Positions 4,746 to 36,359 of a DNA stretch of 64,000 nucleotides are shown here, in pieces. Source of the stretch: Bradyrhizobium sp. G127 (lineage in GTDB: Bacteria > Pseudomonadota > Alphaproteobacteria > Rhizobiales > Xanthobacteraceae). The stretch is taken from the NCBI RefSeq assembly GCF_021502575.1, contig NZ_JAKFGN010000002.1, forward strand, positions 124,001 to 188,000, read 5' to 3'. Under the pieces are notes generated by a model. That model had not been told where the DNA came from. It worked only from the letters and a program-made list of their open reading frames with translations, and made no database searches. Each line of letters opens with the position of its first letter. The first letter of the stretch is position 1. Made by a program: the position numbers and the translations under genes.

Positions 4746-7013
4746 ATGACCACAGCAGAGACGTCGGCCCAAAGCTTCGATCCGTCGGTAGCCGAGTCGC
4801 CCGGCCGGCCATTGCGCCGCCTGTTCGCTCCGGTCGCGGTGGGCTTGGCGCTGCTGTCGGCCTTCCTCACCTTCGTTGTTTTGACCGGGTTGACGCCGAT
4901 TGCGCCCACCCATCAGGTGGTCGTCACCTTCCTGCTGATCAACGGCGCGACCATCCTGCTCCTGCTGGGCATCATCGCCCGCGAGGTCTGGCAGGTGGTT
5001 CAGGCCCGGCGCCGCGGACGTGCCGCCGCCCGACTGCATGTCCAGATTGTCAGCCTGTTCTCGGTGATCGCGGTGTTGCCGGCGGTTCTGGTGTCAATCG
5101 TCGCCAATGTCACCATCGATCGCGGTCTCGACCGACTATTCTCGGTGCGAACGCGTGCGGTAATCGAGAATTCGCTGATCGTTGCCAATGCCTATGTTTA
5201 CGAGCACGCACAGCTCATCCGCGGCGACATTATCGGCATGTCGAGCGACATTGCCCGCGCCCGACCGCTGTTCGATCAGGATCGCCAAACCTTCCGCAAC
5301 ATTCTCACGTCGAGTGCAGCGTCCCGCAATCTTCCGGGCGCGATGATTATCGACAAGGACCGCAATATTCTGGAGACCGCAGCCACCGGCATCCGGCAGG
5401 ATTTCCAGACTCCCGCGGGGGATTTTCTCCGCAACGTGACCGAGGACGAGCCGCAGATCGGCGTCTTCATCGAGCAGAATTACGTCGCCGCGGTCATTCG
5501 TCTGCGCGCCTTCGACAACACATTTCTCTACGTCGCGCGGCTGCTCGACCCGCGCGTGGTCGCGCAACTCAGGCAGACGCAGGATAGCGTCAAGGAATAT
5601 GCCGAGCTTGAATCGCGCCGGCTCGGAATTCAGGTCGCATTCGCACTGATGTTTACGGTGATCGCACTGACGGTGCTGATGTCGTCGGTACTGATCGGCC
5701 TGAATTTCGCCAACTGGCTGGTGGCGCCGATCCGGCGGCTGATGGGCGCGGCCAAACTCGTCTCCACCGGAGACCTCCATGTCCAGGTGCCTGTGATCAA
5801 ATCCGAAGGCGACCTCGCCAATCTCGGCGAGACCTTCAACAAGATGACGCAGGAGCTGCGGACCCAGCGTGACGATCTTGTCAATGCGAGCGGCCTGATC
5901 GACAGCCGCCGCCGGTTCATCGAAGCGGTTCTGTCATCGGCGAGCGCAGGTATCATCGGCGTCGATGGCGACGGCAAGATCGCCGTCCTCAACCGTTCGG
6001 CAGAAAAACTGATCGGACATTCGGAATCGGAAGTGATGGGCAAGCCGTTGTCCGAAATCGTTCCGGAACTCGACGACTTGATGGCGACGGCGCGCAGCAG
6101 TGCGCAGCGCCTTTTACAGGGCCAGATCGACGTCAGCCGCGACAATATCTCGCGCAATCTCTCGGTGCGCGTCAGTTCGGAGCAGACCGGACAATCGAAT
6201 GAGAGTTACATCATCACGCTTGACGACATCACCGAACTGGTGACGGCGCAGCGCACATCGGCGTGGGCGGACGTCGCCCGCCGTATTGCGCACGAGATCA
6301 AGAATCCGCTGACGCCGATTCAGTTGTCCGCCGAACGTATCCGCCGCAAGTTCGGCAAGGTGATTACAGAAGACCGGCCGATCTTTGACCAATGTACAGA
6401 TACAATCATCCGCCAGGTCGACGATATCCGCAGAATGGTCGATGAATTCTCCAAGTTTGCGCGGATGCCGAAGCCTGTCATCGAGGGCGAAGATGTCGCG
6501 GACACTGTCCGTCAGACGGTATTTTTGATGCGGGTCGGATATCCCGACGTCGATATCGAAGTCGACATCAAACAGGAGCCCATGCTCGCGAAGTTCGACC
6601 GGCGGCTAATTTCACAGGGGCTGACGAACATTATCAAGAACGCGACGGAAGCCATCGCGGCTGTTCCTCCTGGAGAAATCGAGCGCGGGCGCATCGACGT
6701 CATCGCCGCGCGCGAAAACGACGATATCGTGATCGATGTTGTGGATAACGGAATTGGGCTGCCCAAAGAAAGCCGTGCACGGCTGCTTGAGCCTTACGTC
6801 ACCACCCGCGAGAAGGGCACCGGCCTCGGCCTCGCAATCGTCGGCCGTGTTCTGGAGGATCACGGTGGACGTATCGAACTGAACGACGCATCCGTACTGC
6901 GTCCCGGCGCACGGGGTGCATGGGTGCGAATGAGATTCTCCATCTCGGGACAGGCGAAAGACGCTGCGACCGAAGAGCCAAAAACAGAAATAGAAGCCGT
7001 AACCGGCAATTGA
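4746..7013 (+). CDS. ntrY: Nitrogen regulation sensor histidine kinase NtrY
   Basis: Membrane-bound kinase partnered with NtrX; linked in this class to nitrogen, redox and envelope control. 755 residues with predicted membrane spans at about 28-49, 59-79, 100-121 and 298-320, a periplasmic sensor loop between the third and fourth, then HAMP, PAS and a kinase core with the phospho-acceptor His516 ([18 protein letters not shown]), an N-box (NIIKNATEAI) and G-boxes (DNGIGLP, GTGLGLAIV). It starts 194 bases after ntrC, so it may have its own promoter, and is followed by ntrX after 17 bases. Confidence 0.94.
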   Translation: MTTAETSAQSFDPSVAESPGRPLRRLFAPVAVGLALLSAFLTFVVLTGLTPIAPTHQVVVTFLLINGATILLLLGIIAREVWQVVQARRRGRAAARLHVQIVSLFSVIAVLPAVLVSIVANVTIDRGLDRLFSVRTRAVIENSLIVANAYVYEHAQLIRGDIIGMSSDIARARPLFDQDRQTFRNILTSSAASRNLPGAMIIDKDRNILETAATGIRQDFQTPAGDFLRNVTEDEPQIGVFIEQNYVAAVIRLRAFDNTFLYVARLLDPRVVAQLRQTQDSVKEYAELESRRLGIQVAFALMFTVIALTVLMSSVLIGLNFANWLVAPIRRLMGAAKLVSTGDLHVQVPVIKSEGDLANLGETFNKMTQELRTQRDDLVNASGLIDSRRRFIEAVLSSASAGIIGVDGDGKIAVLNRSAEKLIGHSESEVMGKPLSEIVPELDDLMATARSSAQRLLQGQIDVSRDNISRNLSVRVSSEQTGQSNESYIITLDDITELVTAQRTSAWADVARRIAHEIKNPLTPIQLSAERIRRKFGKVITEDRPIFDQCTDTIIRQVDDIRRMVDEFSKFARMPKPVIEGEDVADTVRQTVFLMRVGYPDVDIEVDIKQEPMLAKFDRRLISQGLTNIIKNATEAIAAVPPGEIERGRIDVIAARENDDIVIDVVDNGIGLPKESRARLLEPYVTTREKGTGLGLAIVGRVLEDHGGRIELNDASVLRPGARGAWVRMRFSISGQAKDAATEEPKTEIEAVTGN

Positions 7014-29205: not shown

Positions 29206-29295
29206 GGAAGGGTGGCCGAGTGGTTTAAGGCACCGGTCTTGAAAACCGGCGTGCCTGCAAGGGCACCGTGGGTTCGAATCCCACCCCTTCCGCCA
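29206..29295 (+). tRNA. tRNA-Ser(UGA)
   Basis: Class II tRNA fold: acceptor stem GGAAGGG/CCCTTCC, D arm, anticodon stem CCGGT/ACCGG with loop CTTGAAA (anticodon TGA), long variable arm, T arm GTGGG-TTCGAAT-CCCAC, discriminator G and encoded CCA. Its 3' end is the insertion site of the element to the right. Confidence 0.97.
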
Positions 29296-29296
29296 A
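29282..29296 (+). repeat. Left attachment repeat (attL) within the tRNA-Ser 3' end
   Basis: CACCCCTTCCGCCAA, covering the end of the T arm, acceptor strand, CCA and one base beyond. Identical to 36345-36359. Confidence 0.88.
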
Positions 29297-29359
29297 TATT
29301 TCTTATAAATATTTGATATTACTAAGTAATTTTAAACGCTGCTCTCGCCGCGTCCACCG

Positions 29360-29369
29360 CTACGTACAC
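29360..29369. promoter_or_regulatory. Possible integrase arm-type site near attL
   Basis: CTACGTACAC, identical to 36215-36224 at the opposite end of the element; 64 bases inside the left repeat. The rest of 29296-29459 holds no gene. Confidence 0.3.
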
Positions 29370-29433
29370 ACAATCGCCGCGAGCCAGCCACGCCGTTGAG
29401 CGCGAGCGTCGCGACCCCGGTACTCGGCTTCTT

Positions 29434-29452
29434 TCAGGCTAAAATAGCCTGA
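29434..29452 (-). terminator. Hairpin at the end of the HNH/unknown/NTase cassette
   Basis: Perfect eight-base stem TCAGGCTA / TAGCCTGA around a three-base loop, seven bases beyond the nucleotidyltransferase stop. No T-tract follows on the minus strand, so it may be an RNA-stabilising hairpin or weak terminator. Confidence 0.4.
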
Positions 29453-29459
29453 GGCGGCT

Positions 29460-29768
29460 CTAAGCAGCGAACCCCGGTATCTCTTTTGCACTCTCGCTTA
29501 CAACAAAGTCGAGTTCGAGTTCTTCCGCTCGCGTCATAAGCATCAAGTGGACCGGGTATTTGAGACAACAGTCGCGCAGCTCGTTCCTGACAATTGCGCA
29601 ATCCTCGGCTTGCTCGCAAACCACAAGTAAATCGATATCGCTCACTGGCCTCTTGGTACGTGTGACCGAGCCGAACAGATACCACTTGGTCAGAGGGATA
29701 ATCTTCGAAATCCTCGCCCTCTCGCTGCGGACGAAGTCAACTGCAACATCCGCTGCTGGCCTAGTCAT
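29460..29768 (-). CDS. Minimal nucleotidyltransferase (MNT-like), last gene of cassette
   Basis: 102 residues with the pol-beta-type signature WYLFGSVTRTKRPVSDIDLL: G33-S34 and the metal pair Asp44 and Asp46. The third acidic residue expected on the next strand seems to be replaced, since the strand reads PVHLMLM with His74, so activity may be weak or specialised. Stand-alone MNT proteins transfer nucleotides to proteins or tRNA, often as antitoxins of HEPN toxins. It overlaps the 217-aa gene by four bases (ATGA) and is the gene nearest the tRNA. The upstream partner is not an evident HEPN protein. Confidence 0.75.
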   Translation of the reverse strand: MTRPAADVAVDFVRSERARISKIIPLTKWYLFGSVTRTKRPVSDIDLLVVCEQAEDCAIVRNELRDCCLKYPVHLMLMTRAEELELDFVVSESAKEIPGFAA

Positions 29769-30418
29769 GCCTTATTCAAACGACCGAAGAAGGGAGCCCA
29801 CTTGAGAACTTCTACATCCATGTTCACGGCAGCTTCATCCGCTGCAGTAGTGGACTGACCATTTGGATTTGTAATCACCGCTACCGAAAACGGGCCGTAG
29901 CGGTCACGGGCAGCGCGGAGATGGTCCGCAGTGAGTTCATATTCGTTCAGCATCACCGCGATCAGGTCGGGTAAACCCTTCCTGCTTATGGAATAGAGGC
30001 GATCATGCAGCCGGTCGAATGTTGTCACCCGGCTGTGTTGGCGAAGGCCCCGCTCCACAAATGCCGTTTCACTAGGTTGAAAAGCTCGAACATCCTCCTC
30101 GCGAATGGCCCGATACAAATCGCCGAATGAACCTGTCGCCATATTGTGCTCAGCCGCGAGCTTCAATGCACCGCCCGTCCAAAATGCTTCCTTTGGTATG
30201 TTTGCAACGATCTCGACGCCTAGGTTGGGACTGACGACGGGCTGCAGAGTCTCTCTTTCAACACGCGGCGCGGATACGATGCCAGCGATAAAGGGCTCGA
30301 ACGTACTGCGGGTCACTCGGATGACGCGGTCCGACAGGACCTCAACTTCCGAAACGTCTTCGGCTTCTCTCAGAGAAGTCGCGACCCATTCAGTGGTGCT
30401 TCGCGGGCTACGAGCCAC
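29765..30418 (-). CDS. Unknown 217-aa protein, middle gene of cassette
   Basis: I do not recognise this family. The sequence alternates strands and helices with no membrane span; the N-terminal third (VEVLSDRVIRVTRSTFEPF) looks beta-rich, the middle is helical, and the C-terminal part has LPDLIAVMLNEYELTADHL and FSVAVITNPNG. An isolated R-x4-H (R123-H128) exists but the surroundings do not look like a HEPN fold. It overlaps both neighbours (11 bases with HNH, four bases with the nucleotidyltransferase), so the three products are made together and probably work as one system. Its own activity is unknown. Confidence 0.6.
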   Translation of the reverse strand: MARSPRSTTEWVATSLREAEDVSEVEVLSDRVIRVTRSTFEPFIAGIVSAPRVERETLQPVVSPNLGVEIVANIPKEAFWTGGALKLAAEHNMATGSFGDLYRAIREEDVRAFQPSETAFVERGLRQHSRVTTFDRLHDRLYSISRKGLPDLIAVMLNEYELTADHLRAARDRYGPFSVAVITNPNGQSTTAADEAAVNMDVEVLKWAPFFGRLNKA

Positions 30419-31118
30419 TGGCTTCCTCCAAAAGTATTTTATTCATGCCATTAGGAAATCGCTGCGCAACATTCCCGCCCTCACCGAGATGTTTTACTTC
30501 CAGATCATCAACGTGCTGCCGGAACGCTTCAAGAACGCCGCTCTCACCCTTGTTTAAGTGACGTCGGTTCGCATCAAGTATAGCTAATACCTTCCGGTTG
30601 TTCGGCAGAATGATCGAACGCATCTTGCGCTGCCAAGCCTTAGCATCGTCGCTTTCGGGATTTTCACGATAATCATTATCGGGTCCGTACTTCTCGAAAA
30701 TCGCTCGGTTCTCAGCGAGCGCCGGTTCGAGAGCCTTTCGTGCGGTCGCGCGATCTGAATACTCGAAGGCACCGAAAAGCGCCGCGATGCGCTCGACGTG
30801 CTTGCGTTTCCAGTCCTGCATAAGCGCATCCGGAAAATCCTCAGGGACCTTATCGACCATGGTGTGGCAATTTGCGCAAAGCAAAATCAGATTGCCATAC
30901 GCGCCCTTATCTTCTTGCGATACCGAAGCGTCGCCACGAGGGCCATCGCCACTCGCCGCGATGATATGCGCCATTTCGGCTAAGTGAATATTCTTCGAGC
31001 CTGTATCAACGAAAAGCCGGTTCGCACAATCAGGTCTTTGGCAATATCCGCCGGAGTCAGCAAACAACCTCAGCTTTGTTTGCGTATCTGGATTGGCCTG
31101 TCCTCGGCTGCAACTCAT
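30408..31118 (-). CDS. HNH endonuclease, first gene of cassette
   Basis: 236 residues. A zinc-type HNH domain fills residues about 18-110: YCQRPDCANRL (Cys pair), EMAHIIAASGDGP (first His) and GNLILLCANCHTMVDK (Asn, second Cys pair, His). This is a DNA-cutting nuclease fold seen in restriction and defence proteins. The C-terminal 120 residues (after LFGAFEYSD) are helical and not recognised; they may sense or bind a partner. ATG at 31118 is preferred; a TTG at 31127 is possible. A likely promoter sits just upstream. Confidence 0.82.
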   Translation of the reverse strand: MSCSRGQANPDTQTKLRLFADSGGYCQRPDCANRLFVDTGSKNIHLAEMAHIIAASGDGPRGDASVSQEDKGAYGNLILLCANCHTMVDKVPEDFPDALMQDWKRKHVERIAALFGAFEYSDRATARKALEPALAENRAIFEKYGPDNDYRENPESDDAKAWQRKMRSIILPNNRKVLAILDANRRHLNKGESGVLEAFRQHVDDLEVKHLGEGGNVAQRFPNGMNKILLEEASGS

Positions 31119-31151
31119 AGCTAGCAATCCAATTCCACGGTTGACTGAACA

Positions 31152-31181
31152 ATCATATGGTCGGGGCTAAATCTGGCGCAA
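31152..31181 (-). promoter_or_regulatory. Possible sigma70 promoter of the HNH cassette
   Basis: On the minus strand TTGCGC (31181-31176), an 18-base spacer and TATGAT (31157-31152), about 34 bases upstream of the HNH start. Close to consensus at -10, moderate at -35. Confidence 0.35.
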
Positions 31182-31220
31182 TAGAACAACTTTGTTTCTC
31201 AGACCGTAGATACAGGCGTA

Positions 31221-32189
31221 TCAGGAAACCAGAGCATTTTCACCGCTCGACGGCAGAAAATGAGCAATGGGGATGTTCTTGAGAAACGGCCCGGATCCGT
31301 AGTTCTGGATAAACGCCTGAACGCATAAGCTACCCGATGCATCATAGGCGTTCGCGCGCCAGTGAACTTGTCCGGTACGGCGGTCGTCGGGTCCCCATTC
31401 TTGCCGCCGCTCCCCGAAACGCTTGTTCAGGCTATGACGACCTAGCCGCTCAATATCAACGTCGCGCAAAATGAGATGCTTCTGCCAGAAGGCGCGGAAG
31501 TCGAACGCGAGCAAATCCGCGATGCTGGCAATACCAATGTCGCGTACGGCGCGAGTTGAGCAAATCCGATATTCGATATGCAGGCAATCGACCTCGCCGG
31601 TGACCGGGCTGGGTTTCGAGATGTACCCGCTGACGTATTTGCCATTCCAGCGGCGGCCGGTGGACATGCCGCCGTTGTCAAACTCAACGGACTCATGCTT
31701 GCCGTTCCAAAGCTGCACGAAGCATCGCTTGAACGCGGCGAACGCCTTCCTCAAGATCTGTTCGTCGGGAAGAATGATGTCGAGCGCGATTTCGAGATAG
31801 ACGATCCGTGGCGGATTACGGTCACGCTTCGGCAAAGCGCCGTTGCTTTTCGGTATGCGGTCATCGCGTGAGGCGAGGAATGTGAGGGCCACGAGGTTTG
31901 CGCCGACAACCTGAACCTGCTCGCGGTAGGGAAAGATGTTCAACTGACGGAATGCGCCGTTCGCATCTCTTATCCATTCGCCATGATAACGAACGTCGAG
32001 GCTTTGGCAGTTGTCCGCGAGATGCTGACGTTCTTCCGGTGTCAGCTTTCGCTTGAAATGAGAACGACCGGAGTGCGCGTAACCGTAAACATCGAGCGGC
32101 GCGAGCGCGGCAAGTATGTCGGCGGCGGTGGGCGCGGCGCGAGTCGAGCGGCGGACCCGGTCTGGTTTTGGTGGGGTCGCCGCGCGCAT
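31221..32189 (-). CDS. Possible replication-initiation protein of the element
   Basis: 322 residues from the ATG at 32189 with GGAAGGG upstream. No family is certain. The pairing of a strand such as VYLEIALDIIL (about 125-140) with VDCLHIEYRICSTRAVRDIG (about 205-225) is reminiscent of Rep-type initiators of small plasmids and filamentous phages, which have two strands of that kind around a catalytic region. No HUH motif could be seen. Its place directly beside a hairpin-rich non-coding region supports a replication role, but this is inference. An unknown phage-type protein is the alternative. Confidence 0.35.
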   Translation of the reverse strand: MRAATPPKPDRVRRSTRAAPTAADILAALAPLDVYGYAHSGRSHFKRKLTPEERQHLADNCQSLDVRYHGEWIRDANGAFRQLNIFPYREQVQVVGANLVALTFLASRDDRIPKSNGALPKRDRNPPRIVYLEIALDIILPDEQILRKAFAAFKRCFVQLWNGKHESVEFDNGGMSTGRRWNGKYVSGYISKPSPVTGEVDCLHIEYRICSTRAVRDIGIASIADLLAFDFRAFWQKHLILRDVDIERLGRHSLNKRFGERRQEWGPDDRRTGQVHWRANAYDASGSLCVQAFIQNYGSGPFLKNIPIAHFLPSSGENALVS

Positions 32190-32702: not shown

Positions 32703-33596
32703 TTACGCGGCGGCCGTGCGAGCGGTTTCCTTCTTCATGATCTTGACCGATAGGACCGCGCAGGGATCGGCTGTGGGGCGGCGGGCAAGGAAAACATCAT
32801 CCTGCGCGGCTTCCGAAATTAAATATTCCTCGATGGACTCCAGTTCTCGCAAACGGGTACGAATTTCGACGAGTCGCTCCGCTCTCGCATCGGCGGTCAT
32901 GACGAGTCGATGCTGCGCCTGAGCAGCGTCATGCGCCTCAACCATATCGATGACCTTTCGCAGAAACCTATCGCGATCCAGAAAGACCATCGCCGCTGCG
33001 AGGTTCGCCTTCGGCGTGAATGAACCTTCGACCGAAAAATCCAATTCGAACGCATCGCGCGAGATTTTCAGGCGCGGTTTGGTCTTAGCATCCAAACCGT
33101 CCACATATCGCTCAACCAACTTTAGCTTTTCGGTCATGCTCGGATGGCTGTTATGGACTGCGTGGTGCTCGGAACTGAGCGTCGCAATCTCTTGTCGAAC
33201 ACGGCCGATTGCACTCATGTAGGTTTCGCCATCGCCCAACGTCAATTTGACGGCGGGCGTATCGACCAGCTTCACGTCAGGGCTGAGGGTCGTCAACCAG
33301 TGCTCAATATGGGCGATGAGTTGCATCGCGGTCGCAGCCTTCGCGTGCTGAACACCAGCGTGAGCCTGAAGCCGATCGATCTCAGCTTGCAACTCTTTCG
33401 CCTCGACGCTCATCGCGCCCGGCGGCCTTTCGCTGCCATGGGGCGGTGGTGGCGGTGACGGCGCGTGTGCCAAACTGGCCCGCATCTCGGCCGCGCGCAA
33501 ACTAGCGTTGTTCGCGATGGCCCTGAGGTCGGCAGTCCACGCGGTGAGCGCGTTCATTTTGGCGGCCGCCTTTTTTGTAAGGATGGCGCTGCTCAT
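32703..33596 (-). CDS. Coiled-coil protein of the element, 297 aa
   Basis: Function not recognised. The N-terminal 80 residues are alanine-rich with a PSPPPPPHG stretch that is probably disordered; residues about 60-110 (EAKELQAEIDRLQAHAGV) and 240-265 (AERLVEIRTRLRELES) look like coiled coils around a globular centre. It may be a structural or DNA-associated protein of the element. The start overlaps the stop of the 130-aa gene by four bases (ATGA). Confidence 0.5.
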   Translation of the reverse strand: MSSAILTKKAAAKMNALTAWTADLRAIANNASLRAAEMRASLAHAPSPPPPPHGSERPPGAMSVEAKELQAEIDRLQAHAGVQHAKAATAMQLIAHIEHWLTTLSPDVKLVDTPAVKLTLGDGETYMSAIGRVRQEIATLSSEHHAVHNSHPSMTEKLKLVERYVDGLDAKTKPRLKISRDAFELDFSVEGSFTPKANLAAAMVFLDRDRFLRKVIDMVEAHDAAQAQHRLVMTADARAERLVEIRTRLRELESIEEYLISEAAQDDVFLARRPTADPCAVLSVKIMKKETARTAAA

Positions 33597-33987: not shown

Positions 33988-34305
33988 TCAGGTCCTCGCT
34001 GAGCGCCGACCATCGGCGCGGGTTGATTTCGTGCTGCGCTGAACGCGCGCCGTTTTCGGCGGGCGACAGCCGCGCTGGCGGGTAGCTTCGGGAGTCTCGT
34101 TCTTGGTTGCTTCGATTTTTGCGTAAAGCCACGCCTGCACGTCTGACAGACTCCAGCCCACGCGCTTTGCTCCGAGTGCTATTGGCCTCGGAAATTCATC
34201 CTTCGCGATAAGCGCATAAATGCTCGACTCCGGCAGGCCGGTCATGCCGATGACATCGGGCAATCGCAAAATGCTGATGAGCGGGCGGGCTTGTTCTGAA
34301 CTCAA
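33988..34305 (-). CDS. AlpA-family transcriptional regulator / excisionase
   Basis: 105 residues. The first 65 form the MerR-like winged helix of AlpA/Cox-type proteins: ILRLPDVIGMTGLPESSIYALI, FPRPIALGAKRVGWSLSDVQAWL. Such proteins activate the integrase or act as directionality factors in P4-like elements. The basic tail (residues 80-105, TARVQRSTKSTRADGRRS) is unusual. Its place in the integrase transcript fits control of excision. Confidence 0.85.
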   Translation of the reverse strand: MSSEQARPLISILRLPDVIGMTGLPESSIYALIAKDEFPRPIALGAKRVGWSLSDVQAWLYAKIEATKNETPEATRQRGCRPPKTARVQRSTKSTRADGRRSART

Positions 34306-34367: not shown

Positions 34368-34949
34368 CTATCTACCGGGCTTGGATTTTACCGCATGGGC
34401 GGTGAGCGCAGCGACCAGTTCGTTGGTGATCGAAGGCGCAAGCGGCCACAACTCATCCTGAATGATGCGTTCGATGTTTTTACTCACCTTGCGGCCATAC
34501 GGATGTCCCCGCGAGTTCTTGCCTTTGCCGATCAAGCTGCCCTTTTTCAACGGTGGCTTCAGACCGCGCGCGAATTCCTCGTTCGCATGTTTGAGGACGC
34601 TCGCTTCCAACACCTCAAGTTCAGCGCGCGTGAGACGGCGCGGCTGGGGCAGGAAGCGGTCGCGTGCCGCGTGCATGAACCACACCGCGATTTGTTTAGC
34701 TTCCTGTTCCGCGTTCGCGGCCCCCGAAGGCCGACCGGCGCGGTGTTCTGAAAGCTGCAACAGCAACAGGGCCAGTGAGGCGCGGCCTTGCCGGGTGATC
34801 GGCTTGTTTCCGTTGATATGCTCGATCAGGTCATCCCATTCGCCGTCCCGTGCACGGATGACGAGGCCGGAAAGGTGGTCGAGCGTTTTCGTTTTTGTTG
34901 GCCGCGTCGGGCTGCATTGGGCAAGCACCTTTTCAAAGCGGGAGGACAT
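34368..34949 (-). CDS. Hypothetical protein of the element, 193 aa
   Basis: Follows the integrase; its ATG (34949-34947) shares a base with the integrase stop (TGATG), implying re-initiation. Mostly helical and basic; the segment GSLIGKGKNSRGHPYGRKVSKNIE is strongly positive and could bind nucleic acid. I recognise no family. Proteins of this size commonly sit beside P4-type integrases and may help regulation or excision. Confidence 0.5.
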   Translation of the reverse strand: MSSRFEKVLAQCSPTRPTKTKTLDHLSGLVIRARDGEWDDLIEHINGNKPITRQGRASLALLLLQLSEHRAGRPSGAANAEQEAKQIAVWFMHAARDRFLPQPRRLTRAELEVLEASVLKHANEEFARGLKPPLKKGSLIGKGKNSRGHPYGRKVSKNIERIIQDELWPLAPSITNELVAALTAHAVKSKPGR

Positions 34950-36193
34950 CACGCGCGTTCCTTCTTTCTAAACGGCGTCACCACGCCATCACGCTTCGCC
35001 GGTGGCTGAGCGCAGAAGCCTTCCCAATCTCGCATCAACTTGCGGCGCTTCTCTAGGAGTACGCCCCGTCTATAAGCCCGTTCCGTTTCGTCCTTCACGA
35101 CGTGGAACAGTGCCATCTCACTCACAATATTATCTGCCCGCGTGCACTCCGACGCCCAATCCTTGAAGGAAGACCTAAATCCGTGAACGGTGAAATCGCT
35201 CCGCATATCATGAAGCAGATTGAGCATCGCCATGTTGCTCAGCGGATAGCGCAGCTTGCCTCCGGGGAACACGTAAGGGCTGTCGTCGGTGCGCTCGCGA
35301 AAACTATCCAAGATTTCCAGCGCGCGTTTACAGAGCGGGACGAACCTAGGCTTGCCGTCAGTGATTTTGACATCAGCGCGCTCAGCCGGGACCGTCCACA
35401 ACTTCGCGTCGAAATCGAACTCATCCCAAACCGCACCGATTGTTGCGCTGGTGCGGACGGCGGTGAGGACGGTGAACTCAAGCGCGCGGGCGCTGGTGCT
35501 GTTCTTGATGCGCAGTTCGGCCATGAACTGCGGAACATCCGCATACGGCATCGCGGGGTGATTTTTGACCGGCGCAACGTCCGCGCGCTTCGGCAGCACA
35601 TGCTTGAGGTTGGCGCGCCAGCGTGCGGGATTTTCACCGGTGCGAAGGCCCTCGACCTTTGCCGCATCCAAGATGTTCTCGATCCGTGACCGTATGCGGT
35701 TCGCGGTTTCGGTTTTGCCGTTCCAGATCGGCCGCAGAATTTTGAGGATGTGGCTTTGGTCGAGGCTGTCAATCGGCAGGTCGCCTATGACGGGGTAGGC
35801 GTAGGTCGTGAGGGTGTTGGTCCATTGCTGGCGGTGCTTCGGATTTTTCCAACCGGGAGACTGCGCCTTGATGTAGTCCGTGGCGAATGCCTTGAACGAC
35901 ACGCCCCTCAGTTTCTCAGCGCGCTTTTCGACGATGAGATCGACGCCGTCACGTACCAGCTTCCGCAGATCGGCGGCGCGTTCGCGCGCTTCCTTCAGCG
36001 TGACATCGGGATAAGCCCCGAGTCCGTGCCAGCGAACGCGCCCGCCGATGACATAACGAAAAATCCACGAGCGCGTTCCGGACTTCGACACCTGAAGCCA
36101 GAGGCCGCCGCCGTCCGAATATCGCCGGTGAGCTTCAAGGCCATGCTTCAGCTTCGCTGAGGTCAATCGGTGCAGGGCGGTATTCGTGGCCAT
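34949..36193 (-). CDS. int: P4-type tyrosine site-specific integrase
   Basis: 414 residues from the ATG at 36193; a TTG at 36205 is an alternative. N-terminal DUF4102-type domain (KLKHGLEAHRRYSDGGGLWLQV, YPDVTLKEARERA), SAM-like core-binding domain, and a catalytic domain with the first Arg in LTAVRTSATIGAVWDEFD, HGFRSSFKDWASE (His and second Arg), and LFHVVKDETERAYRRG (His and the nucleophilic Tyr). All catalytic residues appear intact. It would recombine the element at the tRNA-Ser 3' end and sits within 170 bases of the right repeat. Confidence 0.93.
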   Translation of the reverse strand: MATNTALHRLTSAKLKHGLEAHRRYSDGGGLWLQVSKSGTRSWIFRYVIGGRVRWHGLGAYPDVTLKEARERAADLRKLVRDGVDLIVEKRAEKLRGVSFKAFATDYIKAQSPGWKNPKHRQQWTNTLTTYAYPVIGDLPIDSLDQSHILKILRPIWNGKTETANRIRSRIENILDAAKVEGLRTGENPARWRANLKHVLPKRADVAPVKNHPAMPYADVPQFMAELRIKNSTSARALEFTVLTAVRTSATIGAVWDEFDFDAKLWTVPAERADVKITDGKPRFVPLCKRALEILDSFRERTDDSPYVFPGGKLRYPLSNMAMLNLLHDMRSDFTVHGFRSSFKDWASECTRADNIVSEMALFHVVKDETERAYRRGVLLEKRRKLMRDWEGFCAQPPAKRDGVVTPFRKKERA

Positions 36194-36202
36194 GGAAAAT
36201 CC

Positions 36203-36224
36203 CAACGTACATGTCTACGTACAC
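36203..36224. promoter_or_regulatory. Possible integrase arm-type binding sites near attR
   Basis: CAACGTACATG (36203-36213) and CTACGTACAC (36215-36224) are near repeats of each other; the second recurs exactly at 29360-29369 near the other end of the element. Repeats at both ends inside the att sites are typical of integrase arm sites. Confidence 0.35.
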
Positions 36225-36344: not shown

Positions 36345-36359
36345 CACCCCTTCCGCCAA
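36345..36359 (+). repeat. Right attachment repeat (attR)
   Basis: CACCCCTTCCGCCAA, exact copy of the tRNA-Ser 3' end at 29282-29296, marking the right boundary of the element. Confidence 0.88.

Follow-up and report, generated by a model that had tools for sequence, protein, structure and literature searches.

An HNH nuclease, an unnamed protein and a minimal nucleotidyltransferase as a candidate anti-phage unit of mobile elements

What might be the function of three overlapping genes that encode an HNH nuclease, a protein without a named family and a very small nucleotidyltransferase (NTase), and that lie at the tRNA end of an integrated element? The question is raised by positions 29460–31118 of a stretch of 64,000 nucleotides from Bradyrhizobium sp. 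G127 (contig NZ_JAKFGN010000002.1, 124,001–188,000 of the forward strand; the whole stretch is called the window below), for which an earlier note, made from the letters alone, had proposed an anti-phage or toxin-antitoxin-like unit. The HNH gene (30408–31118; 236 aa from ATG), the gene of the middle protein, here called X (29765–30418; 217 aa, GTG start), and the NTase gene (29460–29768; 102 aa) are open frames on the minus strand, and the overlaps given by the note, 11 bp between HNH and X and 4 bp between X and NTase, are exact. The answer toward which we lean is that this trio works as a single unit, a nuclease system directed against phages or mobile elements and of a type for which no description was found, in which X and the NTase would gate a DNase. 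The computation supports the unit itself, its conservation, its mobility and its placement in the P2 hotspot of Escherichia coli, as well as the relationship of the HNH domain to Cap5, the duplicated fold of X, the catalytic residues of the HNH protein and the GS..DxD motif of the NTase.

The trio as a conserved unit and its genomic setting

The gene order HNH–X–NTase was found at 26 distinct loci when HNH or X was used as the query (the NTase was never used as one), and by the names of the records these loci include alpha-, beta- and gammaproteobacteria; many of them are carried by plasmids, prophages or integrative elements. The consistent three-gene neighbourhoods in other islands, which the earlier note named among the findings that would favour its proposal, are present. 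The note had also held that homologues of X and the NTase routinely occurring without the HNH gene would speak against its proposal; this was examined from the side of X only, and there every X that was kept and opened followed an HNH coding sequence and was itself followed by an NTase. Among the 26 loci, the HNH gene is broken in L009 and cut by the contig end in L015, and L023 is divergent.

In plasmids, X was found in 9 of 72,556 records belonging to five lineages, and in the one record opened per lineage HNH, X and NTase follow in order (5/5); the NTase of a Polymorphobacter plasmid (L008, 5405–5746) is present in the DNA and missing from the gene table. Whole genomes with X matches at E ≤ 0.001 numbered 4 of 296 in the family, 3 of 385 in the class and 6 of 398 in the phylum, the genome of the window being counted each time, and the trios among them are those of the own genome, of G075, G463, G837 and G757 and the divergent one of G876. 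Five other X matches (L003, L004, L020, L024 and L025; E 6e-5 to 4e-4) have no neighbouring HNH or NTase frame and were judged to be due to chance; the X profile does not match L003 or L004. When patterns of the HNH C-terminus were scanned against 84,980 species genomes, 10 loci were detected; all have X and nine also have the NTase, and in the remaining one the contig stops within X. The count of 10 is a lower bound because the patterns were fitted to the subfamily of the window. Among viral contigs, the HNH alignment found at least eight loci, six of which are trios (one with its HNH gene cut by the contig end) and two of which have nothing but the HNH domain in common with the trio and carry other partner genes. 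With X proteins of three other subfamilies, 0, 3 and 1 loci were obtained, all of them trios; three of these four are on contigs found before, and L043 is new. Counting the subfamily with 0 loci, two viral-contig scans yielded no locus, and a search of 50,697 phage records with window X and with one HNH C-terminus was negative.

Three kinds of locus depart from the common form. In a Rhizobium leguminosarum plasmid (L009, 4184–4899), the HNH coding sequence is divided between two frames, with X and NTase open; the presumed effector may have been lost naturally here. In the divergent trio of G876 (L023, 1037–2449), the X frame has 139 aa and resembles the C-terminal repeat of X; it may be an X with one repeat or a gene that has been broken. 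In the viral contigs of L016 and L017 (5878–8659), a related HNH domain is followed by proteins of 81 and 586 aa in a different three-gene arrangement, which we take to be perhaps like the ABC-three-component systems.

At the level of sequence, the genes of the trio are co-inherited and under purifying selection. The alignments comprised 23 rows for X and for the NTase (L023, L028 and L043 being left out of the 26) and 22 rows for HNH (without L009, L015, L028 and L043), and over 21 loci the pairwise protein distances correlate between HNH and X (0.78), X and NTase (0.75) and HNH and NTase (0.60), values of which none was reached in any of 2000 permutations. The ratio of nonsynonymous to synonymous substitution rates (dN/dS) is 0.04–0.30 in those 12 of 14 gene comparisons that have a usable dS, and it is highest for the NTase. 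A chance cluster of open reading frames is ruled out by the 26 loci, the co-inheritance and these ratios.

In E. coli, 16 of 5426 complete genomes have a match, always chromosomal; 14 of these matches cover the whole trio at 99% identity or more, and two cover the HNH part at 71%, and the one record of the latter group that was opened (ECE228) holds a full divergent trio. In all four records opened (ATCC 8739, ECE228, LR-29-1 and F374), a P2-like prophage carries the trio between its genes for the replication endonuclease (A) and the portal protein (Q); no other cargo separates the trio from the portal gene, and the genes that precede the trio vary. All three genes of ATCC 8739 (L037, 20001–21669) are annotated as 'hypothetical protein'. 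The P2 interval is a known hotspot of anti-virus genes: four validated defence systems are placed there in the relevant part of Vassallo et al., 2022 (PMC9519451), and eight further systems were cloned from it according to the corresponding part of Rousset et al., 2022, three of which were protective, besides the old-tin genes and a phage AC1 system (PMC9122126). Because the trio occupies this hotspot, an unnamed anti-virus system is likely.

Other neighbourhoods point in the same direction. In a Phaeobacter plasmid the trio adjoins a gene annotated as Shedu, and in Polymorphobacter genes annotated as an ABC-three-component system lie about 4 kb away, so that the anti-phage or toxin-antitoxin-like character suggested by the earlier note gains support on genomic evidence from the 26 loci, the P2 hotspot and these neighbours; a toxin-antitoxin-like or signalling step within the trio would be a further assumption. 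Annotated tyrosine integrases are found near the trio in two plasmid records, and frames adjoining it in L013, L014, L021, L027 and L028 were read as integrases by eye, without a family search. No gene of these kinds was seen in the flank, as far as it was covered, of some loci (L026 and L030).

The three proteins and their nearest known systems

The HNH protein consists of a Cap5-type HNH DNase domain (residues ~8–118) and a C-terminal helical bundle (~119–214), which stands in the place of the SAVED domain of Cap5. The domain of the window protein falls slightly under the Pfam cut-offs (19 versus 21.4 bits and 17.6 versus 21 bits), yet it clearly matches the DNase domain of Cap5, an effector of the cyclic oligonucleotide-based anti-phage signalling system (CBASS), and keeps its zinc and catalytic positions, so that the HNH nuclease named by the earlier note is borne out. 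The part beyond this half is helical in the predicted structure (pLDDT 84.5), no SAVED or CARF domain was recognised in it, and the SAVED_HNH models of PADLOC cover only residues ~3–124 of the three HNH proteins scanned. The matches of PADLOC over the HNH half are to Cap5-type proteins, to PDC-M68A (~12–112) and to SduA of Shedu (6e-13, residues 12–142), and AbiQ matches the C-terminal half of one of the three proteins at 0.0028. The protein also matches phrog_29098 (2.7e-12), a family of unknown function, and has no NCBIfam match at E ≤ 1. The top sequence-profile match of the HNH proteins in PDB, 9om4 (an 'HNH endonuclease' of 435 aa; E 2e-24), likewise covers the HNH half only, and the literature search found no paper on 9om4.

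The nucleotidyltransferase that the note had recognised passes the Polbeta model of Pfam (29.1 bits, cut-off 26.9) and touches the cut-off of NTP_transf_2 (21.0 versus 21). Its closest curated relative is the antitoxin MntA (best 5e-6; 9 of 23 members at E ≤ 0.1), with ANT(9) (4 of 23) and HalB (3 of 23) among the others at this threshold; the window protein itself scores 26.3 bits against MntA (cut-off 60) and 19.3 bits against HalB (cut-off 190) in NCBIfam. The CBASS_cyclase model of NCBIfam gives E 0.17 and 11.4 bits against a cut-off of 200, and the seven families that one or more of the 23 NTases match at E ≤ 0.1 do not include it. PADLOC offers nothing for the window NTase but two unnamed candidates, PDC-S09 (3.3e-6) and PDC-M05A (0.0015), and neither of two other NTases scanned matches PDC-S09. 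The NTase profile meets chain E of 9xbd at E 0.042.

The GS and DxD residues are invariant in 23 of 23 NTases with a spacing of 9 or 7 residues (GS-x9-DxD in the window), and dN/dS of this gene is 0.16–0.30 in the four usable comparisons. For MntA, the part of the source that deals with the active site gives GS-x10-DxD as the motif and D71 of the Shewanella oneidensis protein as the third Mg ligand (PMC7641770). The column of residue 74 of the window NTase, in which 15 of 23 proteins including that of the window have His and 8 have Asp, probably corresponds to D71, the alignment being one that contains no MntA sequence. On the tree of HNH and X (21 loci) the His/Asp state requires at least four changes, compared with a mean of 6.6 for shuffled labels, of which 26 of 1000 need four or fewer; therefore the state is partly inherited and has been switched repeatedly. 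The sister loci L010 (His) and L013 (Asp), for example, differ in this column.

Protein X is predicted to be composed of two tandem restriction-endonuclease-like repeats in which the catalytic residues are not conserved. Its predicted structure (pLDDT 94) is a duplicated restriction-endonuclease-like alpha/beta fold, whose structural matches are modest and mostly of such folds, and include Can2, Cdn1 and Card1. Window X has no match in any of the family libraries searched (Pfam, PADLOC, NCBIfam and PHROGs), and a profile of 18 X proteins met a single PDB chain, L-asparaginase 2, at E 0.67. Over 23 X proteins, PADLOC gave three families with one member each, namely DruF (the best, 9.6e-5), PDC-S39 and E2, and Pfam gave scattered matches by one to three members, to DUF7380, Oxidored_nitro (0.0043), DUF4438_C and three more, so that membership in a named family was rejected. 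The only residues invariant in the 23 proteins are G82, A84, Q127, Y160, R168 and A193; because no Asp, Glu or Lys is among them, an active nuclease was rejected as the most likely identity of X. As to X being a split SAVED or CARF receptor, no match to either domain was obtained for the 23 members, and the absence of these domains from the fold list excludes nothing.

One alternative is a CBASS-like signalling pathway, in which infection would lead the NTase to produce a nucleotide or oligonucleotide that is bound by X and switches the HNH nuclease on. The HNH domain is that of Cap5 of CBASS, a ligand could sit between the halves of the duplicated and apparently silent alpha/beta pair, and Can2, Cdn1 and Card1 in the fold list are nucleases activated by cyclic oligonucleotides. 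However, the matches to Can2 and Cdn1 fall on the C-terminal part of these proteins, which we take to be the nuclease domain and not the sensor, and the part behind the HNH half was not recognised as SAVED or CARF. An NTase of ~100 aa is, moreover, too small for a cGAS/DncV-like nucleotidyltransferase (CD-NTase), and the CBASS cyclase model was met at no better than E 0.17. Taken together, positive signalling by the NTase is unlikely.

A restriction-like unit is also conceivable, in which X as a dead restriction endonuclease would read the sequence or the modification of phage DNA and direct the HNH nuclease, and the NTase would modify DNA ends or tRNA or be vestigial. Against this stand the conserved unit at the loci opened, which holds no methylase gene, and the NTase, which is not simply vestigial because its GS and DxD residues are invariant and its dN/dS is low; such a unit is improbable.

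Comparison with the described systems leaves the trio without a name, as the earlier note had stated: window X matches nothing in PADLOC, the NTase matches unnamed candidates only, and the HNH models cover the HNH half. With CBASS the trio shares the Cap5-type nuclease domain, but it has no CD-NTase, its HNH domain is followed by the helical bundle in place of a fused SAVED domain, and X is an extra gene; judged by these tests on sequences and predicted structures, it does not appear to be CBASS. The type VII toxin-antitoxin system HEPN/MNT (HepT/MntA) likewise combines a minimal nucleotidyltransferase (MNT) with a nuclease in one operon. The nuclease of the trio is, however, HNH and not HEPN, no HEPN family (toxin motif RX4HXY) being among the Pfam matches at E ≤ 1 of window HNH and X, and X is a third gene; the NTase differs from MntA in its motif spacing (x7 or x9 in place of x10) and at the position that probably corresponds to the third ligand, which is mostly His, and does not reach the MntA cut-off. 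By these tests the trio seems distinct from HepT/MntA as well. Hailong (HalA/HalB) and Clover also join a small Pol-beta NTase with an effector other than those of CBASS, but the partners in the trio are HNH and X, for which no match to HalA or an HD-dNTPase was found; neither window HNH nor window X has an NCBIfam match at E ≤ 1, and the NTase stays far under the HalB cut-off, so that by these tests the trio is not Hailong.

Among the unnamed candidates, M68A of PDC-M68 has the same kind of HNH half, but the match stops at the HNH domain, X and the NTase match no PDC-M68 model, and no paper with the name PDC-M68 was found in the literature search; PDC-S09 is the small protein matched by the window NTase. 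A further system of the P2 interval, with three genes without clear domains and activity against P1, is described in part of PMC9122126, and the result table of PADLOC v2.0.0, as far as it appears in PMC10855318, lists 3HP. Like the trio, that system has three genes in the same E. coli P2 interval. We take Rst_3HP to be its name; no 3HP model was matched by 23 X, 3 HNH and 3 NTase proteins in a library copy not confirmed to hold 3HP. The literature matches listed include no description of an HNH–X–NTase trio, most subscription papers, preprints and supplementary tables being outside the search. A nuclease effector with an NTase is a known kind of pair, and the trio contains one unnamed protein family, X.

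A possible mode of action

Defence activity, the formation of a complex, negative control by the NTase and the nature of the trigger, all of which we infer, may be combined as follows. The HNH protein would be the effector, a metal-dependent DNase assembled via its C-terminal helical bundle. X may serve as a binding and sensing adaptor that holds or restrains the effector, recognises nucleic acid, or does both. In healthy cells the NTase would silence the effector, most likely by nucleotidylating HNH or X in the way in which MntA adenylylates HepT. Infection would release this hold, for example by altered nucleotide pools, by blocking of the transferase or by a phage ligand for X, and the freed HNH protein would then cut DNA.

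A safety-catch role of the NTase is favoured because its closest curated relative is an antitoxin, because its size falls short of that of a CD-NTase, and because nucleotide signals act as negative regulators in other systems. One of these systems, Panoptes, uses an enzyme of another kind. According to PMC12265719, nucleotide signals regulate negatively in Clover (p3diT), Hailong and Panoptes, and in Hailong and Clover it is the product of a small NTase that holds the system back.

Two observations weigh against parts of this reading. The cargo of the P2 hotspot is only partly defensive, since partition and toxin genes are also reported from the interval in the part of Rousset et al. that describes it (PMC9122126), and the position of the trio therefore makes defence likely, not certain. 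Furthermore, X has acidic residues that are common, though not invariant, among the 23 proteins, namely Asp at position 139 in 18 proteins, Asp or Glu at 165 in 18, and Asp at 178 in 20, where the window protein has Ser, which is at odds with a silent fold. A purely selfish trio, which would serve mobile elements as a maintenance (addiction) module and have no anti-phage role, is very unlikely, as the P2 interval is rich in anti-phage cargo and some neighbours are annotated as defence genes, even though many loci are on integrative elements, prophages and plasmids and the Rhizobium plasmid lineage with a broken HNH gene and open X and NTase genes agrees with the nuclease being the harmful component; addiction and defence are in any case not mutually exclusive.

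More tentatively than the gated DNase itself, it may be proposed that the trio represents a distinct immune class, that of a receptor-less Cap5-type DNase gated by a dead restriction-endonuclease tandem and a minimal NTase, in which reversible nucleotidylation of X or HNH would be the safety catch and the exchange of His and Asp would tune the chemistry or switch it. If the trio is indeed a defence system, it would be a compact phage-defence operon of 1.7 kb, which can be tested at once because E. coli ATCC 8739 carries it. It would also connect minimal NTases with the DNase arm of CBASS, a combination of which our searches found no report, and would bear on whether MNT-type enzymes restrain DNases as they do HEPN ribonucleases. 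X adds a protein family that is unnamed in the libraries searched, and the enzymology of the Pol-beta-type active site is of interest in its own right, since a residue that is likely to bind metal there has repeatedly been exchanged between His and Asp.

The integrative element in the window

In the window the trio is the last cargo of an element of ~7.1 kb before a tRNA-Ser gene (TGA anticodon; ARAGORN, 29206–29295, plus strand), the integration site of the element. One copy of the attachment (att) core CACCCCTTCCGCCAA lies at the 3′-end of this gene (29282–29296) and the second at the far end of the element (36345–36359); the two 15-bp cores are identical direct repeats and are embedded in a 20-nt pair of 90% identity. 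On the minus strand the element encodes a tyrosine integrase (34949–36205; Pfam Arm-DNA-bind_3, Phage_int_M and Phage_integrase), an AlpA-type regulator or excisionase (33988–34305; Phage_AlpA, 57.6 bits) and a core protein of 322 aa without a family (31221–32189). The genes at 31221–32189, 32703–33596 and 34368–34952 have no convincing family in Pfam or PHROGs. The G+C content is 53.8% in the trio, 59.4% in the rest of the element and 60.6% in the window, so that both the placement as cargo at the tRNA end and the lower G+C content noted earlier hold.

The perfect hairpin that the note had seen behind the NTase stop is also real: an 8-bp stem, TCAGGCTA-TTT-TAGCCTGA, lies at 29434–29452 on the minus strand, and a stem of equal length appeared in 17 of 2000 letter shuffles of its 96-nt stretch. 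It is not a canonical intrinsic terminator, because it lacks a T run and a terminator scan gave no intrinsic site at the trio, and a role as a terminator is thus unsupported. The promoter of its own that the note had thought likely for the trio was not borne out, since a scan of 29290–31400 for sigma-70-type sites found two against 1.5 expected, none of them upstream of the HNH gene.

Two related elements, L050 (G197 C4) and L051 (G197 C2), occur in one genome of the same genus among 121 searched, and their copies of the 322-aa gene are 81–86% identical. Both keep the core of integrase, AlpA and 322-aa genes, and the trio is absent from L050 and from L051 as far as the latter was delimited; in L050 other genes fill the slot between the 322-aa core gene and tRNA-Ser; therefore the trio is exchangeable cargo. 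The cargo of L050 beside tRNA-Ser (5033–6904) includes a frame of 177 aa with CxxC and H motifs, which looks HNH-like by eye.

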